A stretch of DNA of 64,000 nucleotides from Chloroflexota bacterium (GCA_019873735.1 JAIOAQ010000002.1:62001-126000); one strand, 5' to 3'; positions 33,726-48,248 are shown, counted from the first letter of the stretch. Numbers and translations: made by a program. The notes: a model not told the origin generated them from the letters alone.

Positions 33726-33753
33726 AGTGGGACAGGATTAATCCTGTCCCACT
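33726..33753. terminator. Perfect 28-base palindrome at the iorB stop codon
   Basis: AGTGGGACAGGATT followed immediately by its exact complement AATCCTGTCCCACT. It overlaps the first base of the iorB stop. As RNA it would be a stem with a tight loop that could end or protect the iorAB transcript. It replaces the right end of the family A copy. Confidence 0.6.
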
Positions 33754-34379
33754 CACATGTCGGCTACTTTAACGGCCTCCCTGCCCGCCAGGAACGCCCG
33801 GCGGTTCAGTTCAACGTGTTTGGCGGGGACGCGCTCTTCGATGACCTTCAGCCAGGTCTCGGCGGAGAGGGCCGCGCCGCTCAGGGCCGGGTCGGCCTCC
33901 AGCAGGGCAGAGAGGGCGCCCAGCAGGACGACGTTGGCGACGCGCAGGTTGCCCAGTTCCTCGGCCAGCCGCTCACCCGGGACGAAGTGGACGCGCTCCG
34001 TCACGGCGTGGAAGGCCCCCAGGATGTTTTCATCGGCGGGGTAGGTTTGCCCGCCCGAGGTGACCGTCAGCGGGACGATGGCCTGGTCGTTGATCAGCGC
34101 CAGTCCGCCGGGGCGCAGCGCCCGCACATTGCGCAGGGCTTCCAGTTTCTCGAAGGCCAGCAGAATATCGGCCTCGCCCAGGCCGACGATGGGGGAATAG
34201 ACCTGTTTTCCCCAGCGCACATGACTGGTGACGCTGCCGCCGCGCTGGCTCATGCCGTGCACTTCGGCTTGTTTGGCGTCCAGGCCGGCAGCCAGCCCCA
34301 CGTTGACCAGCACGTCGCTGGCCAGGACGGTCCCCTGTCCGCCTACACCGCACAACAGGAAGTTGATGACTTCTTTCAT
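33753..34379 (-). CDS. iorB: Indolepyruvate:ferredoxin oxidoreductase, beta subunit
   Basis: 208 residues. The gamma-type 2-oxoacid oxidoreductase domain is shown by 'NFLLCGVGGQGTVLASDVL', 'VHGMSQRGGSVTSHVRWG' and 'ANVVLLGALSALLEAD'. Together with IorA it oxidatively decarboxylates aryl pyruvates to aryl-acetyl-CoA, reducing ferredoxin. The 148-base gap to iorA contains a periodic palindromic repeat. AGGA before the ATG. Confidence 0.9.
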   Translation of the reverse strand: MKEVINFLLCGVGGQGTVLASDVLVNVGLAAGLDAKQAEVHGMSQRGGSVTSHVRWGKQVYSPIVGLGEADILLAFEKLEALRNVRALRPGGLALINDQAIVPLTVTSGGQTYPADENILGAFHAVTERVHFVPGERLAEELGNLRVANVVLLGALSALLEADPALSGAALSAETWLKVIEERVPAKHVELNRRAFLAGREAVKVADM

Positions 34380-34422
34380 GAAGAGTTCCTTTCGATGAGT
34401 TCGTTGCTTTGAAAACGATCAG

Positions 34423-34494
34423 CCACAGATTTCGCAGATGAGACAGATGGATGAAATTGAAAGAAAAATCTGCGAAAATCTGTGCAATCTGTGG
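34423..34494. repeat. CAGAT-word 9-base periodic palindromic repeat
   Basis: Starts CCACAGATTTCGCAGATG and ends AAAATCTGTGCAATCTGTGG; the two halves are imperfect inverted repeats made of ~9-base units (NNNCAGATN and its complement). It separates iorA from iorB. Confidence 0.75.
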
Positions 34495-34527
34495 ATGAAC
34501 CATCTGCCCGGCAGGAGCGCCCAACGA

Positions 34528-36327
34528 CTAGACGAAGATGCTGTCGGGGCGGAAGGTGATGGCGTCGCGCGGGCAAATCTGGGCGCAGACCTCGCAGCCG
34601 GTGCAGAGACTGGCGTCAATCAGCGCTTTGGGGCGCTGGGTCTTCTCGTCCAGTTCCTCGCTCTTCAGGATGGCCGGACAGCCGATGCGGAAGCAGAGCG
34701 TGCAGCCGTTGCATTTATCGGCCAGCACCTCCAGCGGCACCCATTTCTTGCGCGCCTCGGGCAGCAGGGCGCACGGCTCTTGGACGATCAGCACCGAAGG
34801 CTCGTCCAGTTTGATGTACTCTTTGAGCGTCTTTTCGATTTCGTCCACATCCAGCGCCGAAAGGGTGCGGGCGTGTTTGACGCCGCAGGCGCGCACCAGC
34901 GGCTCCAACTCGACGACGGGCGCTTCTTTGCCCAGCAGGGTCTGGCCGGTGCCGGGGTTTTGCTGATGACCGGTCATGCCGGTGATGCGGTTGTCGAGGA
35001 TGACGGTCACGACCGGGGCCTGGTTATAGACGACGTTGAGCAGGGCCGGGACGCCGGTGTGGAAGAAGGTCGAATCGCCGATGACGGCCACGTGTCGTTC
35101 GGGACTTCCGGCCTGGGCCGCGCCATGGGCGACGGCGATGCCGGCCCCCATGCAGCCGCAGGTGTGGATGGCGCTCAGCGGCGGAATCAGGCCGAGGGTG
35201 TAGCAGCCGATGTCGCCGTTGACCGGCACTTTGAGTTTGTTCAGGACGTAGAAGGTCGGGCGGTGCGGGCAACCCGGGCACAGCACAGGCGGCCGGGCGG
35301 GGAGCGGACCCGGATCGGGGGGCGCGGCGCTTTCGATAACGGAAGCAGGCAGAAGTCCGGCGCGAACCGCCGACTGCCGCACCACGGAGGGGTCGAATTC
35401 GCCGGTCAGCGGGAAGATGCTCTTCCCCTCGCAGGCGATTCCCATCAGTTTTACGCCTTCTTCGATGAAGGGGTCGAGTTCTTCGAGGATGATGAGCCGT
35501 TCGACCGAGGCGGCAAAGCGGCGGATGAGGCCTTCGGGCAGCGGCCACGACATGCCGAGTTTGAGGATGGAGGCTTCGGGGAAGACTTCGCGGGCGTACT
35601 GGTAGGAGACGCCGGAGGTGATGATGCCCAGGGCGCGGCCGCGCATTTCGAGGCGGTTGTGGGGGTAGTCTTCGGCGTAGGCGGCGATGGCGCGGATGCG
35701 TTCTTCGATGACGGGATGGCGTTTGATGGCGTTGCCCGGCACCATGACGTATTTGGCCGGGTTGCGCGGGAAGGGCTTGGTCTCGGCGGGGAGTTCGGGG
35801 CGCTCGCCCAGTTCGACGGCGCTGGTGGAGTGGCAGATGCGGGTGGTCAGGCGCAGCAGGACGGGGGTGTCGAAGCGCTCGGAGAGTTCGAAGGCGGCGA
35901 TGGTCAGGTCTTTGGCTTCCTGGCTGTCGGAGGGTTCGAGGCAGGGGACGCGGGCGAATTTGGCGAAGGTGCGGTTATCTTGCTCGTTCTGGCTGGAGTG
36001 CATGGCGGGGTCGTCGGCGCTGACGATGACCAGCCCGGCCTCGGTGCCGGTCATGGAGGCGTACATGAACGAGTCGGCGGCGACGTTGAGGCCGACGTGT
36101 TTCATCGCCGCCAGGGCGCGTTTGCCGGCGTAGGCCGCCCCCACGGCCACGTCCACGGCGACTTTTTCGTTGGTGGCCCATTCGGCATAGACGCCGGGGA
36201 AGAGGGCGAAGTTTTCGAGGATTTCGGTGCTGGGCGTGCCGGGATAGGCCGAGGCGACCTGCACGCCGGCCTCCCACATGCCGCGGGCGACGGCTTCATT
36301 GCCGGAAAGCATTTTTTTGATGGCCAA
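34528..36327 (-). CDS. iorA: Indolepyruvate:ferredoxin oxidoreductase, alpha subunit
   Basis: 599 residues from a TTG start complementary to 36325-36327. It is chosen because GAAGGAG lies six bases upstream; the ATG-initiated frame from 36366 would precede that ribosome site. Order: pyrimidine-binding domain ('SGNEAVARGMWEAGVQVASAYPG'-like), transketolase-C-like domain, TPP domain ('GDIGCYTLG', 'GCMGAGIAVAHG', 'GDSTFFHTGVPALLNVVYN', 'ILDNRITGMTGHQQNPGTG'), then two 4Fe-4S clusters ('CNGCTLCFRIGCP' and 'CTGCEVCAQICP'). It catalyses aryl-2-oxoacid oxidation in aromatic amino acid fermentation. Its Crp/Fnr-type neighbour upstream is co-directional (51-base gap). Confidence 0.93.
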   Translation of the reverse strand: MAIKKMLSGNEAVARGMWEAGVQVASAYPGTPSTEILENFALFPGVYAEWATNEKVAVDVAVGAAYAGKRALAAMKHVGLNVAADSFMYASMTGTEAGLVIVSADDPAMHSSQNEQDNRTFAKFARVPCLEPSDSQEAKDLTIAAFELSERFDTPVLLRLTTRICHSTSAVELGERPELPAETKPFPRNPAKYVMVPGNAIKRHPVIEERIRAIAAYAEDYPHNRLEMRGRALGIITSGVSYQYAREVFPEASILKLGMSWPLPEGLIRRFAASVERLIILEELDPFIEEGVKLMGIACEGKSIFPLTGEFDPSVVRQSAVRAGLLPASVIESAAPPDPGPLPARPPVLCPGCPHRPTFYVLNKLKVPVNGDIGCYTLGLIPPLSAIHTCGCMGAGIAVAHGAAQAGSPERHVAVIGDSTFFHTGVPALLNVVYNQAPVVTVILDNRITGMTGHQQNPGTGQTLLGKEAPVVELEPLVRACGVKHARTLSALDVDEIEKTLKEYIKLDEPSVLIVQEPCALLPEARKKWVPLEVLADKCNGCTLCFRIGCPAILKSEELDEKTQRPKALIDASLCTGCEVCAQICPRDAITFRPDSIFV

Positions 36328-36378
36328 GGGAAACTCCTTCTTAAGAGATAAAAGGTGAAACCACAAGGGTTACAAAGA

Positions 36379-37056
36379 TCACGCCTCCGTCACCAGCCGG
36401 GCCAGACCGGCGCGGTCGGTGAGGATGAATTCGGTGCGGGTGACGTCAATCAACTTCTCGTCCGCAAAGCGGTACAACGTCCGGCAAACGACCTCGCGCG
36501 TGGTACCGAGACGGGCGGCCATTTCGTCCAGGGTGAGGGCGCGCCGCGCCGATTGCCGGTCGGGCGGGACCTGTTCCAGCAGCAGACGCGCCAGGCGCCC
36601 GGCCACGGGCTGAAAGGCCAGGCTCTCGATGACGGTGCTGGCATGCAGCATGCGGCTGACCATCAAACGCGCCAGTTCCCAGGCCAGGCGTCCGTTGGCG
36701 AGCAGCGTGTCCTGCACCTCCTCGCGCCGCCACAGATAGAGCAGCAACGCCGACCGGCACTGCAAGGTGACCGGATTGGCCGCGCCTTCCTGAAAGAAGG
36801 CCACTCCCCAGAAAATCTCCCCTTCCCCGATTTCGGCCACGACAAAGGCACGCCCTTCGGCCGATTCCTTGGCGGCGGCAATCCGGCCGGAGGCCACCAG
36901 CAACAGGTAGGGCCAGCAATCGCCGGCCAGCGAGACGATTTCATCCGCCTGGTAACGCCTGGCAATGGCCGCGTCTGCCCACCGTGCCTGCTCGGGAGCA
37001 GACAACGCCATAAAGACGGGATGCGCTTGCAGCAAGGCGGAGAGCGAAGGGTTCAC
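36379..37056 (-). CDS. Crp/Fnr-family transcriptional regulator
   Basis: 225 residues from a GTG start (37054-37056). An N-terminal cNMP-type beta-roll without the FNR Cys cluster is followed by the dimer helix. The C-terminal winged HTH reads 'LTLDEMAARLGTTREVVCRTLYRFADEKLID' in overlapping pieces. A TATAAT on the minus strand (37063-37068) ends only six bases before the GTG, so the mRNA may be leaderless. A CRP-like palindrome lies further upstream at 37114-37129. It faces away from the membrane-protein run at 37161 and reads into iorAB, so it probably governs one or both. Dnr-like NO sensing is conceivable from the neighbours but unproven. Confidence 0.88.
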   Translation of the reverse strand: MNPSLSALLQAHPVFMALSAPEQARWADAAIARRYQADEIVSLAGDCWPYLLLVASGRIAAAKESAEGRAFVVAEIGEGEIFWGVAFFQEGAANPVTLQCRSALLLYLWRREEVQDTLLANGRLAWELARLMVSRMLHASTVIESLAFQPVAGRLARLLLEQVPPDRQSARRALTLDEMAARLGTTREVVCRTLYRFADEKLIDVTRTEFILTDRAGLARLVTEA

Positions 37057-37062
37057 GATGTA

Positions 37063-37129
37063 ATTATAGCCCAGACTGGACTTGACTTAAGATAAAGACA
37101 GGCATGTTCTCTTCGTGATATATCTCACA
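37063..37129. promoter_or_regulatory. Divergent control region with CRP/FNR-like operator
   Basis: CGTGA-TATATC-TCACA at 37114-37129 matches the CRP-type pattern TGTGA-N6-TCACA in 9 of 10 positions. The minus-strand -10 TATAAT lies at 37063-37068, so the operator centre is about 65 bases upstream of the inferred regulator start. It is also about 40 bases upstream of the ATG at 37161, where it could repress the divergent membrane-protein genes. Confidence 0.55.
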
Positions 37130-37160: not shown

Positions 37161-38009
37161 ATGCAAAACACACCCAAACCGATCCGTCTGGTGCTGGCTG
37201 CCCTGGCCATGACCGTCGGCCTGTTCATGGTCGCCGCCGCGCCGTTCATCATCCAGACTTCGCTGGAGCGGGTGCTGACCGAATTGAGCATAGTGGCCCA
37301 GCAGAAGCCGGCCTATGCCAGCGGCATCCTGCTCTTCTCGTTTGCCTTTCCGCTCTACCGCGGGCTGATTTTCATCGGCGGGATCGCGCTCCTGCTGATG
37401 GCCAAAGCCATCGCCGAAGGCCAGGAGTGGACCTTCCCGGCCGCGCTGCTGGCCTCGGCCTTCCCCTCGGCAGGCGGGATGTTCATGTTCATGCCCTACG
37501 TCTCGTTTGTGGACGGCTTCCCGCTGCCGATGGTGGTCTCTTTCGTCGGGCTGGCCTTCTTCTGGTCGCTCATCCTGCTGCGCAAGGTGGACAAGTGGCT
37601 GAAGTGGGGCCAGTTCCTGGCGCTGACGTTCTCCGGCATGCTGACCACGCACGCCTTCATCGTCGGCATCGGCAACCTGCGCATGCTCCTGACCCGCCCC
37701 GAAAAGCCGTTCTACGACGGCCTCGGCACCTGGGTGCTGGCCTGGTCGCAGCCCATTCAGTGGATCTGCGTCCTCCTGCTCTTCGCGGCGATTTACCTGC
37801 TGGCGGAGCGCAAAATCTGGGGCTGGCGGCTGGCGCTGGTCTCGGTGGTTTCGCTGGCCGCAATGGACATCCCCATGCAGATCATCCGCCTGGTGATCGC
37901 CCGCTCTACCTCGTGGGATTATTCCTACGGCCTGCCGGTCATCATCGGTCTGCTGTTCGTGCTGCTGTTCCCGAAGTTCAAGGGCGCGCTGATTGCCGAC
38001 CAGTCGTGA
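37161..38009 (+). CDS. Polytopic membrane protein of unknown function
   Basis: 282 residues with about eight hydrophobic helices spread over the whole length, short loops and a conserved-looking 'PFYDGLGTWVLAWSQP' loop near residue 190. GGAGG before the ATG. I do not recognise the family. It is the first gene of the run that diverges from the Crp/Fnr-like regulator and contains a heme O synthase and a hemerythrin. A role in a membrane redox or gas-response system is therefore an inference from context. Confidence 0.75.
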   Translation: MQNTPKPIRLVLAALAMTVGLFMVAAAPFIIQTSLERVLTELSIVAQQKPAYASGILLFSFAFPLYRGLIFIGGIALLLMAKAIAEGQEWTFPAALLASAFPSAGGMFMFMPYVSFVDGFPLPMVVSFVGLAFFWSLILLRKVDKWLKWGQFLALTFSGMLTTHAFIVGIGNLRMLLTRPEKPFYDGLGTWVLAWSQPIQWICVLLLFAAIYLLAERKIWGWRLALVSVVSLAAMDIPMQIIRLVIARSTSWDYSYGLPVIIGLLFVLLFPKFKGALIADQS

Positions 38010-38020
38010 AAGGAGGAAGG

Positions 38021-38809
38021 ATGAAAACCAGAAACGCCATCGGAATCGTGCTGGCCGTTGCGGGGGTGCTCATCGGCCTGCTGCTGGCCTACCAGATTGC
38101 CAGCATTTACCAATCTACGATGGACGGGAAAATCGCCGACGGCCGCCCCGACGAGGCCATCACCGTTCAGATTGTCTTCGCCATCCTCGGCTGGCTGACC
38201 CTGGCCGGCGCGGCGCTGATGGGACTGGCGCTGTACGGATTTGCGTATCGCCAGCCCTGGGCCTGGTTCTGGGGAACGGTGGCGGCGACGATTTACATGC
38301 TGACGGCCTTCTTCCCCATCATCCCGCCCGCCAGCGTGGGGCTGCCCTCGCCCACCGCCCCGACCTTCGGCCTGGCTGCCATCCTCTGGTTTGGGATGCT
38401 CATCGTCGGCGGCGCGGCCTGGAAATTGATCGCCCTGACCTTTGTGGCCGGCATCGCCTATGTGCTGACCTTCATGGACGGCGTGGCCTGCATCTCGCGC
38501 TATCAGACCGTCCCCGATGCCTTCCTGCACGGCCTCTACGCCGTGACGCAGATGGTGAACTGGTGGGGTGCGGCGGCCTGGGCGGCCTTCATCTTCGCCG
38601 CCCTGAAACGCAAGGCCTGGGCCGCGCCGCTGGGCGTGTTCGCGGCCGGGCTGTCCATGCTGGGCGGCTTCCCGCTGGGAATCAGCGACGTCATCCGGCT
38701 GGGACGCTTCTCGATGTTCCTGCCCGCGCCGCTGATCAGCACCCTCCTGCTGGTCGCCCTGTCCCTGCCCGGGACGCGGAGTCTCCTCCAGAAACCGGAG
38801 GCAGGCTGA
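38021..38809 (+). CDS. Polytopic membrane protein of unknown function
   Basis: 262 residues from ATG 38021, behind AAAGGAGG; the long open frame that begins at 37427 is a shadow of the previous gene joined to this one. There are about seven helices. Pieces such as 'GFAYRQPWAWFWGTVAATIY' suggest a lipid-embedded scaffold without obvious cofactor ligands. The gap to the previous gene is 11 bases, so they are co-transcribed. The 3' end including the stop is duplicated 84 bases downstream. Confidence 0.75.
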   Translation: MKTRNAIGIVLAVAGVLIGLLLAYQIASIYQSTMDGKIADGRPDEAITVQIVFAILGWLTLAGAALMGLALYGFAYRQPWAWFWGTVAATIYMLTAFFPIIPPASVGLPSPTAPTFGLAAILWFGMLIVGGAAWKLIALTFVAGIAYVLTFMDGVACISRYQTVPDAFLHGLYAVTQMVNWWGAAAWAAFIFAALKRKAWAAPLGVFAAGLSMLGGFPLGISDVIRLGRFSMFLPAPLISTLLLVALSLPGTRSLLQKPEAG

Positions 38810-38902
38810 CGGTCCGCGCGACGAGGCTCACCACAAAGGACACAACGGAACACGAAGGGTTTCCTTTGGCTCCAGAAACCGGAGGCAGGTTGACGGTCCG
38901 CC
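38786..38902 (+). repeat. 33-base direct repeat flanking a CACAAAGGA-word element
   Basis: CTCCAGAAACCGGAGGCAGG and the 13 bases after it occur at 38786-38818 and again at 38870-38902 with one mismatch. Between them lies CTCACCACAAAGGACACAAC and related 9-base words. The first copy contains the stop codon of the preceding gene. This looks like a small insertion that duplicated the gene end, or an unequal exchange. Confidence 0.75.
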
Positions 38903-39031
38903 GCGCAGCGGGAATGTGACCTTTGTTACAGAAGTGAACAGGTACCTGTGCAATAATTCACATGAAAACCCGTCCTCGTTCGTCGGGTTTAATCCCATGG
39001 AGGTTGTTCCCCTCCAGAAAAGGAGAATGTG

Positions 39032-39649
39032 ATGAACCTGTTCACCCTCGACAATCTGTTCCTTCTGCTGACCGGCCTGACGGCCATCTACCTGCTCTGG
39101 CGCTTTTACACCCGCTGGAGCAAGGGAAAAGCCCTGTACGATGTGTACTACATGATGGGCTTCCTCGTCCTGCTGGTCTCCGGGCTGCTGCTCATCTTCC
39201 TGGGGCTGGGCATCCTCGAGTCGCCCTATGTGCTGACGGTGGCCTCGCTCATCCCGCTGGGCATTTCGATGGGCATCATGGAGCAGTACTTCCCGCAGTG
39301 GAAGAAGGCCTTCAAGTGGTTTGCCCTGGTCGGCTTTTTAGCCATCGCCGTCTTCAGCATTGCCGGCGTCGAGATCGGACGCAAGATTTCGGTGCCGCTC
39401 TTCCATGGCGTGGCCGGGCTGGTGATCTTCATCGGGCCGTTCATCGCCAAAGGCGCGGCCAAGGGCTTCTGGTGGGTCGGCATCGGCGGCCTGCTCATCG
39501 GCCTGGGCGGGATCGCGCTGGCGTTCATCGCCAACGACGCGCAATTGCTCTTCTTCAGCCCGGAATTCGTGATGATGATTCTTACCCCCCTGCTGCTGCT
39601 CATGACGCTGGCGTTTACGTTTGGGTTCGTCAAAGATATCAAGAAGTAA
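39032..39649 (+). CDS. Small polytopic membrane protein, paralogue of the protein at 43788
   Basis: 205 residues from ATG 39032 (AAGGAG six bases upstream; a GTG one codon earlier is possible). About six helices. 'LILGLGILESP'-like and 'LVGFLAIAV' blocks, 'GGLLIGLGGIALAF' and 'LLLLMTLAFTFGFV' are shared with the 201-residue protein at 43788-44393, clearly a duplication at both ends of the heme-related run. Function unknown. It is followed by a 120-base periodic repeat. Confidence 0.78.
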   Translation: MNLFTLDNLFLLLTGLTAIYLLWRFYTRWSKGKALYDVYYMMGFLVLLVSGLLLIFLGLGILESPYVLTVASLIPLGISMGIMEQYFPQWKKAFKWFALVGFLAIAVFSIAGVEIGRKISVPLFHGVAGLVIFIGPFIAKGAAKGFWWVGIGGLLIGLGGIALAFIANDAQLLFFSPEFVMMILTPLLLLMTLAFTFGFVKDIKK

Positions 39650-39652
39650 GCA

Positions 39653-39772
39653 CTGGCACGTTGGCACGTTGGCAGGTTGACAAGTTGATGGGTTGGAAAG
39701 TTGGCAGGTTCGAAGGTTCGACTCTTCAACCTGCCAACCTTTCAACTTTCAAACCTTCCAACGCTCAAATCG
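39653..39772. repeat. Fifteen-unit 8-base periodic array forming a large imperfect palindrome
   Basis: The left nine units follow NTGGNANG/TTGGCAGG-type words (e.g. TTGGCACG, TTGGCAGG, TTGACAAG, TTGGAAAG). The right six are their complements (TTCAACCT, GCCAACCT, TTCAACTT, TCAAACCT, TCCAACGC). All keep the same 8-base register across 120 bases, ending just before the ribosome site of the next gene. Confidence 0.85.
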
Positions 39773-39784
39773 AGGAGAGACATA

Positions 39785-41260
39785 ATGGAATTTCTCAAAG
39801 CCCGCTTTAACTATCTCTTCAACTCCACCAAGGGGCTCATCCTGGTGGCCATCGCGATGATCGCCATGGTGACTGCCGTCTGGGGCATGCTCTCCGGTCC
39901 GATGGCCGAGATGGGCGTGCGGGAGGTGGTCATCAAGACCCTCGGCATGGACATCGTCCAATCCGAGCGCGAGGGGCGCATCATCATCCTGTACCATTCC
40001 ATCGCCATGGCCGTGGTGGCCATCGAAGTCTATATGATCACCGGCCTGCTGGCGATGCGCGAGTTCTACAAAAAGGCCGTGCGCGTGCTCATCACCGTCG
40101 GTTACATGATGGCAATGATCTTCGGCATGGGCTTCGCCTACTTCGGGCATAACTGGGCCTTTCACGGGCTGTACATCACCGGCCTGGCGCTGATCTTCTT
40201 CGCCGGGGTTTTGCTGTGCGTGGCGCTGTGGCCGTGGAACAGGGAATACTACATCACCGACACGAACTACGCGCGAACGAAAAAGGGCGTTGACCTCGAG
40301 CGCGTGGCGTTTTTCACCACTGCGGTCACAACCGTCCTCTCTGCGCTCTTCGGCGCGGTGCCCGGCTCGTACTTCGGCAATGGCTTCGAAGTCTTCCTGG
40401 CCGAGAACATCATCCGCCTGCCCGAAAAGACCACGATGGAGTATTCCGTCATCGGCCACCTGCACATCATGCTGGCGCTGATTGCCATCATGATCACGCT
40501 CGTCATCGGGCGCTGGCTGAACTTCAAAGGCGCGTGGCACAAGGCCGCCATGCCGCTGATGATTCTGGGCTGCATCGTGCTCAACCTCGGCGTCTGGGGC
40601 GTGGTCACGCCGCTCGAACCCGTCGCCCACATGATCATCTACGTCGGCGCGACCCCGTCCATGCTGGCGGCGCTCTTCCTGCTCATCTGGAGTTGGGGCA
40701 AACTCATCAAGGACGGCACGGCGGGCATCGCCAAACCGACCTTCCTGCAAAAACTCGGCGCTCTCGTCCGCGACCCGCTCAAGTTCGGTCCCACCTGGCA
40801 GATGCTCTTTATGAACTTCACCACCAGCGGCGTTGGCATCTTCATGGCCGTCCGCCTCGACGAAATCTTCCGCATGTGGCCGGCCCGCGAAGAACGCATC
40901 GAACTGACCGGTCACTGGCACGCCCTCTCGGCCATCATCGCCACCATCATCCTGTTCTACTACGGCGACATGATCGGGCTGAAGGGCAAAGTGCGCCAAC
41001 TCTACGGCTGGGCGATCATCTTCCTCTCCGACCTCGCCCTGGGCGCGGTGACCGTCTTCGAGATGAAACGTCTCTTCATCGAGGAAGCCGTGCAGCAACC
41101 GCTTGTCAATACCTTGATGTATATGATTGACATCGGCCTCGGTCTCCTGCTTGTTCTCCTCGCCATTGTGATGGTCTGGCGCTTGACCGACCTGTTCAAG
41201 AAAAAAGGCCGCTGGACGGAAGAAGCCGCCCACGAACTCGCCGAGGAGGTGTCGAAATGA
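39785..41260 (+). CDS. His-rich polytopic membrane protein, possible heme-copper oxidase-like subunit
   Basis: 491 residues from ATG 39785, behind GAGGAG, with about 12 helices. Histidines inside or at the ends of helices are His71 ('LYHSIAMA'), His122/His127 ('FGHNWAFHG'), His225/His227 ('IGHLHIML'), His282 ('PVAHMIIYVG') and His377/His379 ('LTGHWHAL'). The HxH helices resemble the heme-binding helix X of heme-copper oxidases and NO reductases, but the usual CuB His-His pair is not evident. The assignment to that superfamily is therefore tentative. Four-base overlap with the following FGE-domain gene, and a heme O synthase two genes on, support a heme-containing respiratory or NO-related enzyme. 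Confidence 0.6.
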   Translation: MEFLKARFNYLFNSTKGLILVAIAMIAMVTAVWGMLSGPMAEMGVREVVIKTLGMDIVQSEREGRIIILYHSIAMAVVAIEVYMITGLLAMREFYKKAVRVLITVGYMMAMIFGMGFAYFGHNWAFHGLYITGLALIFFAGVLLCVALWPWNREYYITDTNYARTKKGVDLERVAFFTTAVTTVLSALFGAVPGSYFGNGFEVFLAENIIRLPEKTTMEYSVIGHLHIMLALIAIMITLVIGRWLNFKGAWHKAAMPLMILGCIVLNLGVWGVVTPLEPVAHMIIYVGATPSMLAALFLLIWSWGKLIKDGTAGIAKPTFLQKLGALVRDPLKFGPTWQMLFMNFTTSGVGIFMAVRLDEIFRMWPAREERIELTGHWHALSAIIATIILFYYGDMIGLKGKVRQLYGWAIIFLSDLALGAVTVFEMKRLFIEEAVQQPLVNTLMYMIDIGLGLLLVLLAIVMVWRLTDLFKKKGRWTEEAAHELAEEVSK

Positions 41261-42159
41261 AGCGCATCGTTCTGACCCTGGGCTTGCTCCTCGTTCTCCT
41301 GGCCGCCTGCGCCCCGGTTGACCTCGACCCGCCCATCCCGGTCTACGACACGGGCATGGACCCCGAAGCCTGGGCGCGCGTCCCCGCCGGGACGTTCTAC
41401 CACGGGCAGGAAGCCGAACTCGAAGAGATTCCCTACGACTACGAAATCATGGTCACGCCCGTGACGGTGGCGCAGTACGTAGATTTTCTTAACGCCGCCC
41501 TGAACGATGGGACCGTTCTGCTGGAGGGCGAATACGCCGTCGCCTTCTACCCCGGCGATCCTTTCCACGGCAAGAAGCACGAAATCCGCATTGACCCCGG
41601 CAACTACCTGCTCGTGCCGCTCAACGACCCGGCCTCACGCTTCACCTTCGACGGTCAGCGCTTCGCCGTCAAACCCGGCTGGGAGAATCACCCGATGACC
41701 AACGTCTCCTGGTTTGGCGCCTGGGCCTACTGCGGTTCCTACGGCTGGCGGCTGCCGACCGAACTGGAGTGGGAGAAAGCCGCTCGCGGGTCCGAAGACG
41801 ACCGCCCCTTCCCCTGGGGCTACGAAATCGCCCGCAACAACGCCAATTTCTACGCCAGCCGCGATCCCTTCGAGGACATGTCCTCCTACGGCTCGCTGAC
41901 CACCCCGGTCGGCTTCTACAACGGCCGCGCCTACGGCGGCTACCAGACGCTCGACTCGGCCAGCCCCTACGGCCTCTATGACATGGCCGGCAACGTCTGG
42001 CAATGGATCGGCGATGTCCAGCCGCAGGAAGGCTTCAGCGACCGGCTGATGCACGGCGGCTCGCGCAACACCTACGATATGGACCTGCGCATCTGGGTGC
42101 GCAACTCCGCCCCGCCGATGTACTACGGCCCGGCGGTGGGGTTCAGGTGCGTGCGGTAA
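41257..42159 (+). CDS. Lipoprotein with formylglycine-generating-enzyme (FGE-sulfatase) domain
   Basis: 300 residues. Signal with lipobox LAAC (Cys at residue ~18). The FGE/SUMF1 fold is seen in 'MVTPVTVAQYVDFLNAA', 'HPMTNVSWFGAWAYCGSYGWRLPTELEWEKAAR' (in overlapping pieces), 'YGLYDMAGNVWQWIGD' and 'GGSRNTYDMDLRIWVRNS'. The catalytic Cys pair of true FGE is not evident. Such NirV-like proteins often sit beside nitrogen-oxide reductases and probably act as accessory factors. Start overlaps the His-rich protein gene by 4 bases (ATGA), indicating coupled translation. Confidence 0.85.
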   Translation: MKRIVLTLGLLLVLLAACAPVDLDPPIPVYDTGMDPEAWARVPAGTFYHGQEAELEEIPYDYEIMVTPVTVAQYVDFLNAALNDGTVLLEGEYAVAFYPGDPFHGKKHEIRIDPGNYLLVPLNDPASRFTFDGQRFAVKPGWENHPMTNVSWFGAWAYCGSYGWRLPTELEWEKAARGSEDDRPFPWGYEIARNNANFYASRDPFEDMSSYGSLTTPVGFYNGRAYGGYQTLDSASPYGLYDMAGNVWQWIGDVQPQEGFSDRLMHGGSRNTYDMDLRIWVRNSAPPMYYGPAVGFRCVR

Positions 42160-42160
42160 G

Positions 42161-42264
42161 CACGTAGACAGGTACACAAGTATACAGGTATACTTGCCAC
42201 CTGAATTATTTTCCTGTGCATGTCTTTACGTGTGTACGTCTTTACGTGTATACCTGTCTACTTA
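42161..42264. repeat. Thirteen-unit 8-base periodic palindromic array
   Basis: Units CACGTAGA, CAGGTACA, CAAGTATA, CAGGTATA and their complements TTTACGTG, TGTACGTC, TATACCTG, TCTACTTA keep an exact 8-base register. The array starts two bases after the FGE-lipoprotein stop and ends at the heme O synthase ribosome site. Confidence 0.85.
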
Positions 42265-42277
42265 CGAAGGAGTCCGC

Positions 42278-43159
42278 ATGACCGCTAAATCACCAATGGC
42301 CAATCACCAGCAATCCATCCTCCAACGCATCCGCCTCTACCTCCCCCTCATCAAATCCCTCCAAACCAGCCTCTTGCTGGCAACCGGGCTGGCTGGCTAT
42401 CTGAGCGCGCACACGCCGCCCTCCGGGCTGACCCTGCTGGGCGTGGCCGTCAGCCTGTTTCTGGCCATCAGCGGCTCGACCGTGCTCAACATGTGGTACG
42501 ACCGCGATATTGACGCCGTGATGAACCGCACCCACCACCGTCCGCTGGCCGATGGGCGCGTCTCGCCGACCGAAGCCTTGCGCCTGGGGTTGATTCTCTC
42601 CATCCTGGGCGTGGGGCTGGCCGTGTGGATGTCGCCGCTCTACGGGCTGGTCGTCTTTGCCGGGTTGTTCTTTGACGTGGTCATCTACACCCTCTGGCTC
42701 AAGCGCCGCACCTGCTGGAGCATTGTCTGGGGCGGGGTCTCGGGCGGCATGCCCATCCTCGCCGGGCGGGTGATGGCCACCGGTCAGATTGACCTGATCG
42801 GCATCCTGCTCAGCATGGCCGTCCTGTTCTGGATTCCCACTCACATCCTGACCTTCTCCATGCGTTACTTCGCCGATTACCAGTCAGCGCGCATCCCCAC
42901 CTTCCCCTCCACCTACGGCTTCGAGACCACCCGCGCCGTGATCGCCCTCTCGGCCATCATTGCCGCGGCCAGCATGGGGGTGGCGGGGGTGATGATCGGC
43001 GTCCAGGCCGGCTTCCTGCGCCTGATGGCCGTGCTCTCGGCAGGGCTGCTCGTCCTGTCCTTCGCCACCGTCTTCCGCCCCTCCGAGCGGGTCAATTACA
43101 GCCTGTTCAAGTATGCTTCGCTGTACATGCTGGCTTCGATGATTTTGCTTTCGATTTGA
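42278..43159 (+). CDS. ctaB: Protoheme IX farnesyltransferase (heme O synthase)
   Basis: 293 residues from ATG 42278 behind GAAGGAG; the frame extends upstream through the repeat array but without support. UbiA-type prenyltransferase with first Asp-rich motif 'NMWYDRDIDAVMNRTHHRPL', second region 'YTLWLKRRTCWSIVWGG' and 'GGMPILAG'. It converts heme b to heme o for heme-copper oxidases, in the membrane. Its presence implies that an o- or a-heme enzyme is assembled nearby, most plausibly the His-rich protein at 39785. Confidence 0.93.
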   Translation: MTAKSPMANHQQSILQRIRLYLPLIKSLQTSLLLATGLAGYLSAHTPPSGLTLLGVAVSLFLAISGSTVLNMWYDRDIDAVMNRTHHRPLADGRVSPTEALRLGLILSILGVGLAVWMSPLYGLVVFAGLFFDVVIYTLWLKRRTCWSIVWGGVSGGMPILAGRVMATGQIDLIGILLSMAVLFWIPTHILTFSMRYFADYQSARIPTFPSTYGFETTRAVIALSAIIAAASMGVAGVMIGVQAGFLRLMAVLSAGLLVLSFATVFRPSERVNYSLFKYASLYMLASMILLSI

Positions 43160-43161
43160 CC

Positions 43162-43217
43162 GTAGACGGTAGACCGTAGACCGTCCACTGTCCACCGTCT
43201 ACCGTCCACCGTCTATA
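43162..43217. repeat. Eight-unit 7-base periodic palindromic array
   Basis: Units GTAGACG, GTAGACC, GTAGACC then GTCCACT, GTCCACC, GTCTACC, GTCCACC, GTCTATA. The first three complement the later ones. It lies between the ctaB stop and the hemerythrin ribosome site. Confidence 0.8.
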
Positions 43218-43230
43218 AAAGGAGTGCCCT

Positions 43231-43791
43231 ATGAAAGCCACCGAAATCCTCATGGAAGAACATCGCGTCATCGAACGCGTCCTGAATGCCCTGGAACGGG
43301 CGGCTCAACGCGCCGCTGCCGGTGAACACGTCCGCCCGGCCTTCTTCATCAACGCTGCTTTGTTCATCAAGAATTTTGCCGATGGCTGCCACCACAGGAA
43401 AGAGGAGGGCGTGCTCTTCAAGGCCATGAACGAGGCCGGCATGCCTGTTGAAGGCGGGCCGATTGCCGTCATGCTGGCCGAACACGAACAGGGTCGCGCC
43501 TTCACCCGCGAAATGCGTGCCGCCGCCGAAATGTGGGAGAAAGGCGATCGCTCGGCGCTTCAGGCTGTTGTCCAAAACGCCCTCGGCTACGTTGCCCTGC
43601 TCCGCCAACACATTCACAAGGAGGACAACATCCTCTTCCCCCTGGCCGGGCGCGTCATCCCGACCGAGCGCTACGAGGCGGTGACCGAAGCCTTCGAGCG
43701 CGTCGAACACGAGGAGACCGGCGAGGGCGTTCACGAGAAATATCTCGCCCTGGCAGAAGTTTTGGAGAAAGAAAGTCAACAGAACGCATGA
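43231..43791 (+). CDS. Hemerythrin HHE-domain protein
   Basis: 186 residues. A four-helix-bundle with di-iron ligands: 'MEEHRVIERVL' (His), 'CHHRKEEGVLF' (His and Glu), 'AEHEQGR' (His) and 'HIHKEDNILFPLA' (His and Glu). The length and the cation-rich tail fit the DUF/HHE group that includes NO- and oxygen-responsive proteins. Next to heme O synthase it may bind O2 or NO. AAAAGGAG before the ATG; its stop overlaps the following start. Confidence 0.92.
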   Translation: MKATEILMEEHRVIERVLNALERAAQRAAAGEHVRPAFFINAALFIKNFADGCHHRKEEGVLFKAMNEAGMPVEGGPIAVMLAEHEQGRAFTREMRAAAEMWEKGDRSALQAVVQNALGYVALLRQHIHKEDNILFPLAGRVIPTERYEAVTEAFERVEHEETGEGVHEKYLALAEVLEKESQQNA

Positions 43792-44393
43792 AGACTTCCC
43801 CCCTCTCCCGCCTTCTCTTGCTGCTCACCGCGTTGCTGGCTGCCTGGCAGGTGGCCATCGGCATCGAAGGGCTGGAGCGCGTCCCCGTGCTGGCCTATAC
43901 CGTTGGCTTCGGCATCCTGCTCGTTGCCTGCCTGCTGCTCATCATCCTTGGCCTGGAAGTGCTGGAAAGCCCGGTCGTGGTCATCGTCTCGACCGTCATC
44001 CCGCTCAGCCTCTCGCTGGGACTGGTCTGGGAGCACCTGACCTCCTGGCGGACGGCTTACCTGACCTTCGTCCTGGCCGGCTTTCTGGCCATCCTCGTCA
44101 CCCGTGCCTTGCCTTTCAAGGGACGGCTGCCGGTCATTGTGCTGGCGGTTGTCCACGGCATCTCTGGGATGGTCATCTTCCTCCTGCCGAGCGTCCTGGC
44201 GGCGCAGGGGACGACCCGTGCGGGCTTTGCGCTGGTCGGCCTGGGCGGCGCGCTGATCGGACTGGGCGGACTGCTGCTCTCGTTCTTGAAGGCCGGCCGG
44301 CCGATCCTGCCGCGCGAGACGATCCTGCGCATCCTGCCGGCCCTCTTGCTGTTGATGACTGCCACCTTCGTAGCCGGCTTCATGCTGGCGTAA
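43788..44393 (+). CDS. Small polytopic membrane protein, paralogue of the protein at 39032
   Basis: 201 residues; ATGA overlap with the hemerythrin gene. About six helices; 'LLLIILGLEVLESPVVV', 'LAGFLAIL', 'GGALIGLGGLLLSF' and 'LLLLMTATFVAGFML' align by eye with the 205-residue protein at 39032. Tight coupling to a hemerythrin suggests that this family is a membrane partner of the di-iron protein. Function otherwise unknown. Confidence 0.78.
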   Translation: MKTSPLSRLLLLLTALLAAWQVAIGIEGLERVPVLAYTVGFGILLVACLLLIILGLEVLESPVVVIVSTVIPLSLSLGLVWEHLTSWRTAYLTFVLAGFLAILVTRALPFKGRLPVIVLAVVHGISGMVIFLLPSVLAAQGTTRAGFALVGLGGALIGLGGLLLSFLKAGRPILPRETILRILPALLLLMTATFVAGFMLA

Positions 44394-44401
44394 CGCAAAA
44401 A

Positions 44402-44473
44402 CACGACGGGCACAAAGTCACACAAAGGAAAACTCTGTCGTTGCTCCTTCGTGACCCTTGTGTCCTTGGTGGT
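44402..44473. repeat. Eight-unit 9-base periodic palindromic array
   Basis: CACGACGGG, CACAAAGTC, ACACAAAGG, then complementary CTTCGTGAC, CCTTGTGTC, CTTGGTGGT words. It shares CACAAAG-type words with the element between the duplicated ends at 38819-38869. Confidence 0.78.
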
Positions 44474-44494
44474 AAAAACAAAAAGGAGTATGCT

Positions 44495-45175
44495 ATGCAA
44501 AACACCTGGTGGGCTAAAACCCTGCGCATCCTGGGCATCGTCCTGATGAGCCTGACCGCCGCCTTCACCCTGATGGGCGGAGCCGGGACGGCCTGCGTTG
44601 CCCTCAACCCAACCGGCTGGGACGGGAAGTTCGCCGGCATCGCCCCGTTCCAGTGGCTGTGGATTCTGTTCGTGCTGGTGGGCGTGGCCGCCGGTATTCT
44701 GGGCGTGCGCGCCGTGATTCAACTCGTCCGCGGCCGGAAGCACGCCTACCGCGACGCGCTGATCGCCCTCATTCTCGGCACGATCCTCAACGCGGTCCAC
44801 GTCTTCGCCTCGCGCGCCCTGCGCGGCGCCTCCATGCCCGTGGATGCCGTTCTGTACACCAACCTGCTGACGCTGATCGTCTTCCTGCTCTTCCGCCTGC
44901 TCGGCCTCTGGCAGGGCGTCAACTATGAGAAGCCAGATGGGGCAAAGGAAACCGGACGCTACGCCGCGGCAATCGCCCTGGCCGCGGTCGGCCTGCTGAC
45001 CCTGACCATCCAGTTCCTCATGGCGCCCACCCACACCATCGGCGGGGTCAACTATGCCGATGTCTGGCACACGGCTCTGACCGCCATCGGAATCGGCCTC
45101 CTGACCGCATCCGTCGTCAGCGCCTTCTCAACGCGCAAATCTGTGGTTCTCCCCGCCGCAGCGCCGGCAAAGTAA
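44495..45175 (+). CDS. Polytopic membrane protein of unknown function
   Basis: 226 residues from ATG 44495 behind AAAAGGAG. About six helices; 'GGAGTACVALNPTGWDG' forms a periplasmic-side loop with one Cys, and 'DALIALILGTILNAVHVF' one helix with a His. It is the last gene of the run that starts at 37161. No family recognised. Its separation from the previous gene by a periodic repeat matches the pattern within the run. Confidence 0.72.
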   Translation: MQNTWWAKTLRILGIVLMSLTAAFTLMGGAGTACVALNPTGWDGKFAGIAPFQWLWILFVLVGVAAGILGVRAVIQLVRGRKHAYRDALIALILGTILNAVHVFASRALRGASMPVDAVLYTNLLTLIVFLLFRLLGLWQGVNYEKPDGAKETGRYAAAIALAAVGLLTLTIQFLMAPTHTIGGVNYADVWHTALTAIGIGLLTASVVSAFSTRKSVVLPAAAPAK

Positions 45176-45517: not shown

Positions 45518-46078
45518 TCACGCTTTCGCTGCTACCGTGTGTGCCTGGGCATAGGCATAGCCTTTGCGAATGGCCTCAATGTTTTTGGGCAATAGATGCT
45601 TATGGCGGCCGGGCATGTGGGCATTGAGCGTTGCTTCAATGTCTTCAGTCTTCAGGACAGAAACAGCCGTGAGCAAAGCGCCAACGGCAACCATGTTTGC
45701 CAGCCGCTTGTCGCCGATTTCTTCTGCAATCTCATTTGCCGGAATATAAATGGCAGTAATGTCCTCGCGTCGGACCGAACGATCTACCATCGAAGAGTTG
45801 ACTACCAACGTCCCACCCGGACGCATCAACGGCTCGTATTTATCCAGCGAGGGCAGGTTCATGACCAACGCCACAGGCGGATTCTTGACCAGAGGGGAGC
45901 CAATCTCCTCATCTGCAATGACCACAGTGCAGTTCGCCGTGCCGCCACGCATTTCCGGGCCGTATGAAGGAATCCAGGTGACTTCCTTGCCGGTTTCCAT
46001 GGCCGCATAAGAGAGAACCTGACCGGCAAACATGATCCCTTGCCCGCCAAAACCAGCCAGAACAATTTCGATTTGCAT
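45518..46078 (-). CDS. 2-oxoacid:ferredoxin oxidoreductase, gamma subunit
   Basis: 186 residues. 'VLAGFGGQGIMFAGQVLSYAA', 'SYGPEMRGGTANCTVVI' and 'NMVAVGALL' are the gamma-subunit blocks of the 2-oxoglutarate/2-oxoisovalerate group. It is the last of four genes in the order delta-alpha-beta-gamma. The enzyme decarboxylates a 2-oxoacid to its acyl-CoA and reduces ferredoxin. Confidence 0.92.
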   Translation of the reverse strand: MQIEIVLAGFGGQGIMFAGQVLSYAAMETGKEVTWIPSYGPEMRGGTANCTVVIADEEIGSPLVKNPPVALVMNLPSLDKYEPLMRPGGTLVVNSSMVDRSVRREDITAIYIPANEIAEEIGDKRLANMVAVGALLTAVSVLKTEDIEATLNAHMPGRHKHLLPKNIEAIRKGYAYAQAHTVAAKA

Positions 46079-46097
46079 GCTTTGTTCCTCCGATTTT

Positions 46098-46877
46098 CTA
46101 TATCTTCAGGGCTGCCACTGGCTCTGAAATCTTGTAATCGCCCAGTGGGAAGGCCGGAATCATGTGTTCTTCCAACCAGGTCAGGGATTCTACCGGGGTT
46201 AAACCCCAGCCGGTAGAACAGGTGGACAGCAACTCAACCATCGAAAAACCGAGCGCATGTTTCTGGACTTCAAACGCGGTGCGGATGGCCTTCTTTGCCT
46301 TGCGGATGTTGGCAGGATCATGCAGACTGCGGCGTACAATGTAGCCCGCGCCATCCAGCGTAGAAAGCATTTCCGCCATGCGAATCGGGTAGCCCTGCGC
46401 CTCCACGTCGCGCCCGCTCGGCGAAGATGTGGTCTTCATGCCCGGCAAAGTGGTGGGTGCCATCTGACCGCCGGTCATGCCGTAAATGGCATTGTTAATG
46501 AAAATGACCGTGATGTTTTCGCCGCGGGCTGCCGCGTGGACAATCTCGCCCATGCCGATAGAAGCCATGTCGCCATCGCCCTGGTAGGTGAAGACAATGC
46601 GGTCGGGCAGGACGCGTTTGACGCCGGTTGCCATGGCCGGGGCGCGGCCATGTGCCGCCTCAAGAAAATCACAATCAATAAAGTTATAGGCAAAAACCGA
46701 GCAGCCAACAGGAGCAATGCCAATTGTGCGGTCGAGGACGTTCATCTCTTCCAACACTTCTGCCACAAGACGATGGGCAATGCCATGGGTGCAGCCGGGG
46801 CAATAGGTCGTCACGGTGTCGGTCAAACCGACCGGGCGTTTATAGACGATATTTTCGGGGGTCACCAGAGTAGCCAT
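46098..46877 (-). CDS. 2-oxoacid:ferredoxin oxidoreductase, beta (TPP-binding) subunit
   Basis: 259 residues. '[18 protein letters not shown]', '[14 protein letters not shown]', '[20 protein letters not shown]' and '[17 protein letters not shown]' form the TPP/Mg site. The substrate group (2-oxoglutarate or branched-chain 2-oxoacid) cannot be settled by eye. The 'CPGC' and GDGD patterns are complete, so it should be active. Nineteen bases before the gamma-subunit gene. Confidence 0.93.
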
Positions 46878-46886
46878 ACATACCTC

Positions 46887-48005
46887 TCATTTTACAGTTT
46901 CAAGCATACGGTGCAGCCAAATCGCCGCCGGATCATCTTCGGCTTTGGGCGGATGCTTGACCATTTGCTCAATTTCGTCCAGGATTTCATCGGGCAACGG
47001 CATCACCCCGCCCAGGCGTCCATAGAAGCGGATCGGGACGCGGCCGCGGACGGCCAGGCGGACATCCTCCAGCATCTGCCCGGCATTCATTTCAGTCACT
47101 AAAAAGGCCTGCGTTTTAGCGCACAGTTCCTCAATGCGCTTGTAGGGATAGGGGGAGAGGCTGATGGGGCGGAAGAGACCGACCTTGATGCCCTTGGCGC
47201 GCGCCGCGCGCACTGCCGAGAGAGCGATTCTGCCGGCGGTACCAAAGCCAATGACCACGTATTCCGCATCTTCAAGGTAATATTCTTTGTAGCGGATTTC
47301 GTTCTTTTGAATTTGTTCCCAACGCTTGAGCAGGCGCAGGTTGGTGATTTCTTCTTCAGGCGGATCGAGGTAAATAGAAGTCAGGATGCGGCGTTCACGC
47401 CCGATGGCGCCGTTCACAGCCCAGGGCTGGTTAAACGGGCGGGGATAGGGCTGCATTTCGGGCAGTTCGGCAGGTTCCATCATCTGGCCAATTGAACCGT
47501 CCAGCAACACGCAACAGATGTTCAGATACTTCTCGGCCAGATCAAAGGCAAGCGGCATCATATCTACCGCCTCTTGAATATTGGCCGGGGCAAGGACAAT
47601 GGGATGATAATCTCCATGTCCGCCGCCTTTGCAGATCTGGTTGTAGTCGCCCTGGGAGGGAGCAATATTGCCCAGACCGGGGCCGCCGCGCATCACATTG
47701 ACCAGCACCATCGGCACCTCTGTCCCGGCGATGTAGGAAAGGCCTTCCTGCATCAGGCTGATGCCGGGGCTGGAGGAGGATGTCATCACCCGAGCGCCGG
47801 TACAGGCCGCGCCGTAAACCATGTTAATGGCGCCCAGTTCGGCTTCCGCTTGAACGAAAGCGCGTCCCAGTTCGGGCATCCGCTTGGACATCCATTCCAG
47901 AATTTCATTTTGCGGCGTGATCGGATAGCCATAGTAAGCATCCAGGCCGGCACGGATCGCCGCTTCGGCAATGGCTTCATTTCCCTTGAGCAATTCGCGG
48001 GCCAT
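46887..48005 (-). CDS. 2-oxoacid:ferredoxin oxidoreductase, alpha subunit (VorB/KorA-like)
   Basis: 372 residues. '[30 protein letters not shown]' split over the N-terminus, '[20 protein letters not shown]' and '[23 protein letters not shown]' are alpha-subunit blocks. They resemble 3-methyl-2-oxobutanoate dehydrogenase VorB. It carries the pyrimidine-binding and CoA-site domains. AGG-rich ribosome site; 3-base gap to the ferredoxin subunit. Confidence 0.92.
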
Positions 48006-48008
48006 AGG

Positions 48009-48248
48009 TTAACCTCCTGCAGCGGCTTTGGTTACTTCGCGGTACACGGTAATCGCCGCGTCCGGGCAAACCAGGGCACAAATAGCACACCCGGTGCAAC
48101 CGTCTGCAACGATATGCGCCGGGTGGTAGCCCTTTGGAGTCAGCCGCCCCATATCCAAGGCGATGACCTTTTGGGGACAGGCATTGATGCAAAGTTCACA
48201 GGCTTTGCAATACAGGTCATTGACTTCAATCCAACCTTTAGCAGGCAT
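48009..48248 (-). CDS. 2-oxoacid:ferredoxin oxidoreductase, delta (2[4Fe-4S] ferredoxin) subunit
   Basis: 79 residues. Two 4Fe-4S motifs, 'CKACELCINACP' and 'CTGCAICALVCP', joined by a 28-residue loop. It passes electrons from the TPP centre to soluble ferredoxin. First gene of the operon. GGAG before the ATG. Confidence 0.93.
   Translation of the reverse strand: MPAKGWIEVNDLYCKACELCINACPQKVIALDMGRLTPKGYHPAHIVADGCTGCAICALVCPDAAITVYREVTKAAAGG

Follow-up and report, generated by a model that had tools for sequence, protein, structure and literature searches.

In a 64,000-nucleotide stretch of DNA from a Chloroflexota bacterium (GCA_019873735.1 JAIOAQ010000002.1:62001-126000; the window, from whose first letter all positions are counted), a run of nine genes on one strand (37161-45175) encodes what is apparently a conserved and undescribed membrane system. 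Its central product is a His-rich membrane protein of 491 amino acids (39785..41260, plus strand), encoded together with a lipoprotein carrying an FGE domain, a heme O synthase (CtaB), a hemerythrin-like protein and five further membrane proteins, here called M1 to M5 in gene order. We interpret the system as representing a divergent family with the fold of the heme-copper oxidases (HCO), most likely engaged in the reduction of nitric oxide (NO), and give this interpretation a probability of about 0.5, based on sequence comparison and a structural model. The gene cluster is conserved in anaerobic Chloroflexota and may encode their missing NO reductase. As the HCO-like family has no Pfam match, it is missed by domain-based annotation. 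It provides a concrete, testable NO reductase candidate in a cultured organism, Thermanaerothrix daxensis. If the interpretation is true, the oxidase fold extends to a clade with a different set of metal ligands, which bears on the origin of this fold from a repeated four-helix unit.

A six-frame search of 298 sampled genomes from the same class recovered homologues of the HCO-like protein in 55, and a scan of the GTDB genome collection returned 320 places, the best 80 of which belong nearly all to Chloroflexota, including T. daxensis, whose cluster is located on NZ_LGKO01000005.1 near 117-119 kb. The gene run is therefore not a chance arrangement. Seven His are invariant across 41 aligned homologues reaching down to about 31% identity (H71, H127, H225, H227, H282, H377 and H379), as are R65, Y70, E207, R211, E370, W378 and other residues. 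A first-pass annotation of the sequence had named six of these His, all of which hold, and had missed H127. No sequence match to the protein was obtained in Pfam, NCBIfam, PHROGs or PDB, of which Pfam and PDB were searched also with a wider alignment. PF00115 matched none of 25 family members at E<=10, PF05940 (NnrS) matched none of 25 homologues, and hhalign comparison of the family with Chloroflexota COX1 profiles gave a probability of at most 1.9%. Membership by sequence in PF00115, in NnrS or in any family of the four databases was thus rejected for want of matches, and profile-level kinship with Chloroflexota COX1 alignments or with an NnrS-like protein of these genomes was rejected since nothing significant was obtained. 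An earlier description of the protein was not found in the open-access literature that was searched; one may still exist elsewhere.

Two occurrences at the margin of the family are recorded here. A 520-amino-acid membrane protein with FLHG and GSHSHEM (HSH) motifs (L215:652-2211, genome G435) shows a weak relationship to the HCO-like profile (hhalign probability 64%) and may form a further branch. Locus L147, in a metagenome-assembled genome labelled Neomarinimicrobiota, has the gene order M3-HCO-FGE-CtaB-M4, with an identity of about 62% for the HCO-like protein; this is either a horizontal transfer or a binning error.

The AlphaFold2 model of the HCO-like protein, built from 60 aligned sequences, comprises 12 long helices (pLDDT 80, pTM 0.85), and 12 transmembrane helices (TM1 to TM12) are predicted. 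Comparison with the PDB by Foldseek gave 11 best matches that are all heme-copper oxidases (ba3 and aa3; TMq 0.44-0.62, probability 0.96-1.00); other folds among the 50 matches listed reach a TMq of at most about 0.30. The distribution of Lys and Arg (28 inside, 10 outside) indicates an N-in topology, and from this topology all seven invariant His lie in the outer half of TM2, TM4, TM6, TM8 and TM10. In heme-copper oxidases the hemes and CuB are likewise held near the outer helix ends. H71 on TM2 and the HxH motif H377/H379 on TM10 match the oxidase scheme, which has the His of the low-spin heme on TM2 and an HxH on TM10, and would bind heme here. TM6 carries a second invariant HxH (H225/H227), and TM4 (H127) and TM8 (H282) each add an invariant His. 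When the family profile was compared with itself, an internal repeat offset by four helices emerged (E 8.8e-7), in which H127 aligns with H282 and the HxH of TM6 with that of TM10. Ordinary oxidases, compared as a mixed profile, have an internal repeat of their own, between N-terminal and C-terminal parts (E 2e-7). The best reading of the model is a new family with a heme-copper-oxidase fold and a changed ligand set. With HCO subunit I (PF00115; ba3, aa3) the protein shares 12 transmembrane helices, the predicted fold (TMq up to 0.62), an internal repeat, a heme O synthase partner and, in the outer half, a TM2 His, a TM10 HxH and a TM6 His. It differs from subunit I in the HxH form of the TM6 motif, in the invariant His of TM4 and TM8, in the lack of an invariant TM7 His pair and in the absence of subunits II and III, and neither its sequence nor its profile shows a detectable similarity.

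The CtaB of the run (about 42278-43159, plus strand; UbiA/CtaB) passes the curated cut-off of TIGR01473 with 228.4 bits against 210.3. Most carriers of the HCO-like gene possess another CtaB as well, with an identity of about 32%; in the genome of the window (G000) it is located on contig 21 together with an ordinary COX1, about 3 kb apart. Four carriers (G164, which is 99% complete, G039, G091 and G174; completeness 91-99%) have kept the HCO-like gene and the dedicated CtaB while encoding no PF00115 protein and no CtaA. This suggests that the HCO-like protein is the client of the dedicated CtaB and uses heme O rather than heme A.

Conservation of the gene set was counted at 101 distinct loci with a close homologue (>=50% identity), some of which are cut by contig ends, so that all counts are lower bounds. 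The FGE lipoprotein is present at 98 and the dedicated CtaB at 93 of these loci, M4 and M5 at 69 each, M3 at 57 and M2 at 53, and a Crp-family gene is nearby at 59. M1 (13/101) is accessory. The hemerythrin was recovered at a single close locus; synteny thus excludes it as a core member, and it is a lineage-specific accessory. The conserved core consists of the HCO-like protein, the Cys-less FGE lipoprotein, the dedicated CtaB and M5. The first-pass annotation had taken all nine genes as a set and spoken of a heme/di-iron system: the core genes do occur together in related genomes and a heme membrane system is supported, whereas M1 and the hemerythrin fall outside the core and di-iron does not define the system.

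The FGE lipoprotein (41257..42159, plus strand; PF03781, E 1.5e-35) is encoded 3' of the His-rich gene and on its strand; at the close loci a median of 28 bases separates the ends of the two matches. Its only conserved Cys are C18 of the lipobox, C159 and C298, and none is found in the HGGSRNTYDMDLRIW region, so that the catalytic Cys pair of FGE is missing. The closest solved structure is SUMF2. SUMF2, a human paralogue of FGE, has no FGE activity. The lipoprotein thus resembles FGE, SUMF2 and NirV-type proteins in its domain and differs from them in lacking the catalytic pair and in residing in a putative heme-enzyme operon.

The link to NO is genomic. In G079 and G260 nirS is the next gene downstream of the operon on the same strand; in G230 it begins at the contig end and is cut. 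In G027 a nirS-containing cluster lies beyond three Crp genes, and it and the operon are oriented away from each other. Among close carriers 11 of 30 have nirS, against 2 of 37 non-carriers (Fisher p 0.002), and 17 of 30 have nirS or nirK, against 6 of 34 (p 0.002), tests that ignore the kinship of the genomes and so overstate their independence. T. daxensis, Ca. Desulfolinea nitratireducens and G663 encode nirS and just one COX1, which scores high (480-485 bits), leaving the HCO-like protein as their only other candidate for an NO reductase of heme-copper type. G130, G114 and G193 are like T. daxensis in having nirS, one high-scoring COX1 and no detected PF00115-type NO reductase. Published accounts are in line with this: the genome paper of T. 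daxensis lists NirS and NrfA and no NO reductase (PMC4653793), and a nor gene seems to be lacking in most of the Chloroflexota that have the unusual C1-C2-NirS, an observation that its authors considered counterintuitive (PMC8756737). We tentatively propose, giving this rather less than even odds, that the family is a new group of NO reductases with the HCO fold, a rebuilt site (an HxH on TM6 plus His on TM4 and TM8, with the TM7 pair absent) and heme O, which fills the NO step seemingly missing in NirS-bearing Anaerolineae. The first-pass suggestion of an undescribed oxidase, NO reductase or gas sensor gains support from the predicted fold, which is that of a heme-binding superfamily, from the placement of the His in the model, from the dedicated CtaB and from these NO links. 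Known NO reductases (cNOR, qNOR, eNOR, sNOR, gNOR, nNOR) resemble the system in fold class and, in some genomes, in linkage to nirS. The HCO-like protein differs from them in having no PF00115 match, while the NO-reductase-like Chloroflexota proteins examined do match this family, in lacking a NorC-type or cupredoxin partner, and in being accompanied by a dedicated CtaB and the FGE lipoprotein.

The conservation of the His and gene sets, the predicted fold, the dedicated CtaB and the genomic NirS links were computed here; the mechanism they suggest is as follows. The HCO-like protein would be the catalytic subunit. A low-spin heme could be held between H71 on TM2 and H379 on TM10, and a high-spin heme on H377 would face a non-heme metal bound by H225/H227 of TM6 and by H282, with H127 possibly in a further ligand set. 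At least one of the hemes would be heme O from the dedicated CtaB. Electrons would come from the membrane; since neither a c-type cytochrome nor a cupredoxin subunit is encoded, quinol is the probable donor. The most likely reaction would be the conversion of NO to N2O, presumably under control of the divergently encoded Crp/Fnr regulator. The Cys-less FGE lipoprotein and M3, M4 and M5 may serve as accessory subunits or assembly factors.

Several points weigh against assigning the system to the HCO fold and to NO reduction. The Foldseek E-values are weak (best 0.015), so that the fold claim relies on coverage, TM-score and the lack of competing folds; the model, a prediction and not an experimental structure, covers a single chain without cofactors; and neither sequence nor profile-profile comparison revealed a similarity to PF00115 proteins. 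The weak E-values and missing sequence similarity would also be expected if the product were no heme protein at all and the likeness of a 12-helix membrane protein to oxidases were a modelling artefact. We consider this very improbable, given the full-length agreement with heme-copper oxidases only, the seven invariant outer-side His and the dedicated heme O synthase. The paired CuB His of TM7 are absent, no His on TM7 being invariant, and a different construction of the active site would be needed. Three genomes (G223, G192 and G089) possess a dedicated-type CtaB but no HCO-like gene. The genome of the window has neither nirS nor nirK above threshold, so that its HCO-like protein would have to detoxify external NO or serve another substrate, and 13 of the 30 carriers lack both genes. 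Finally, some nirS carriers encode other, low-scoring PF00115 proteins, in two cases (G050 and G125) on the contig that holds nirS, and these may be NO reductases.

O2 reductases are the usual clients of heme O synthases. This fact, the HCO-like fold and the lack of nirS and nirK in the genome of the window are compatible with a terminal or protective oxygen reductase, in which the same fold and heme O site would reduce O2 and the nirS link would reflect shared microaerobic or anaerobic regulation only. The absence of the TM7 His pair and of subunits II and III from the run, the position of nirS beside the operon in three genomes and the fact that many carriers already hold an ordinary COX1, together with a separate CtaB and CtaA for it, make such a role quite unlikely.

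The direct position of the operon upstream of nirS in G079, G260 and G230 could also mean that the protein is a multi-heme quinol dehydrogenase feeding NirS or another periplasmic acceptor rather than a gas reductase. The many His, the absence of a canonical CuB site and a NapH/NosR-like ferredoxin protein found upstream at some loci fit this function. Most carriers, however, are without nirS, and distant homologues adjoin COX1-like and flavodiiron proteins instead; we give a dehydrogenase little credence.

In G027 the nirS-containing cluster (L235:15062-19408) comprises a C1-C2-type NirS, a cupin, a 392-amino-acid NnrS-like membrane protein and a 121-amino-acid membrane protein. The NnrS-like protein contains an HxH motif, matches nothing in Pfam and, together with the cupin and the 121-amino-acid protein, recurs at other loci of the family.

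NnrS (PF05940) itself is, like the HCO-like protein, polytopic with an HxH on a middle helix and occurs in denitrification neighbourhoods. The HCO-like protein might accordingly be a non-catalytic NO- or heme-handling protein that protects the cell, senses or delivers metal during nitrosative stress. The presence of the 392-amino-acid protein in the same neighbourhood in several genomes, as well as Crp-family regulators and hemerythrin-DUF438-PAS proteins nearby, would suit this function. Against it, none of the 25 homologues matches PF05940, hhalign gives a probability of 1.2% between the family and the NnrS-like protein of these genomes, and the presence of a dedicated heme O synthase, like that of the seven invariant His, points to a redox enzyme. 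On balance a non-catalytic function seems unlikely, and NO reduction by an HCO-fold enzyme remains our preferred reading.

At 14 distinct loci with distant homologues the set of FGE lipoprotein and M3 to M5 is mostly missing. CtaB is present at four of them, a COX1-like protein at four, three of which also have a cupredoxin gene, and hemerythrin-DUF438-PAS proteins at five, including L219. The distant homologue at L219 also adjoins a flavodiiron protein resembling the NO reductase flavorubredoxin. Such flavodiiron and hemerythrin-DUF438-PAS neighbours count among the links to NO. The COX1-like protein (PF00115) beside HCO-like genes was seen at L056:11319-13379 and also at L057, L058 and L105/L264; in its TM6, GLDMVADGN takes the place of the GHPEVY of ordinary oxidases, and the adjoining cupredoxin subunit is without the usual CuA cysteines. 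This L056-type protein may be a gNOR-like NO reductase.

The remaining genes of the run complete the picture. The run of nine is present just as the first-pass annotation described, and Pfam and NCBIfam also bear out its assignments of the FGE, heme O synthase, hemerythrin and Crp genes. All nine lie on the same strand and the Crp/Fnr-family regulator (36379..37056, minus strand; PF13545 and PF00027) is divergent. The regulator has three Cys in total, and no Fnr-type Cys cluster was seen in its sequence. Between the Crp gene and the operon an Fnr-type palindrome is matched only weakly, at 37082, and was not used as evidence. Oxidase subunits II or III, c-type cytochromes and NorC are absent from the run, in line with the earlier statement. 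The hemerythrin-like (HHE) protein (43231..43791, plus strand; PF01814, E 1.7e-22) contains the hemerythrin domain and is weakly RIC/YtfE-like: it scores 38.4 bits against TIGR03652 (RIC/YtfE), below the cut-off of 204.7, and YtfE is a weak PDB match. The hemerythrin stop overlaps the start of M4 in an ATGA, as does that of the His-rich gene with the FGE gene.

M3 (39032..39649, plus strand), a predicted seven-helix protein with invariant H125 (model pLDDT 93.9), and M4 (43788..44393, plus strand), with invariant H123, are paralogues as had been proposed, with cross-hits about 34-45% identical and the invariant His in common. Structure search gave no confident fold relative for M3; a known fold for M3/M4 was rejected, the matches being generic seven-helix proteins only, mostly G-protein-coupled receptors and rhodopsins. 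M5 (44495..45175, plus strand) has no Pfam match and carries invariant C34 and H180; its family is unassigned. The same is true of M2 (38021..38809, plus strand; searched from 38030) and of the accessory M1 (37161..38009, plus strand), neither of which matches Pfam or NCBIfam. Three tandem M1-type membrane proteins are encoded downstream of a CtaB and away from the HCO-like gene in G039 (L243:8391-11246). Genes resembling those of 2-oxoacid:ferredoxin oxidoreductases, judged from their translations alone, lie on the minus strand on either side of the operon (33753-36366 and 45518-48248).

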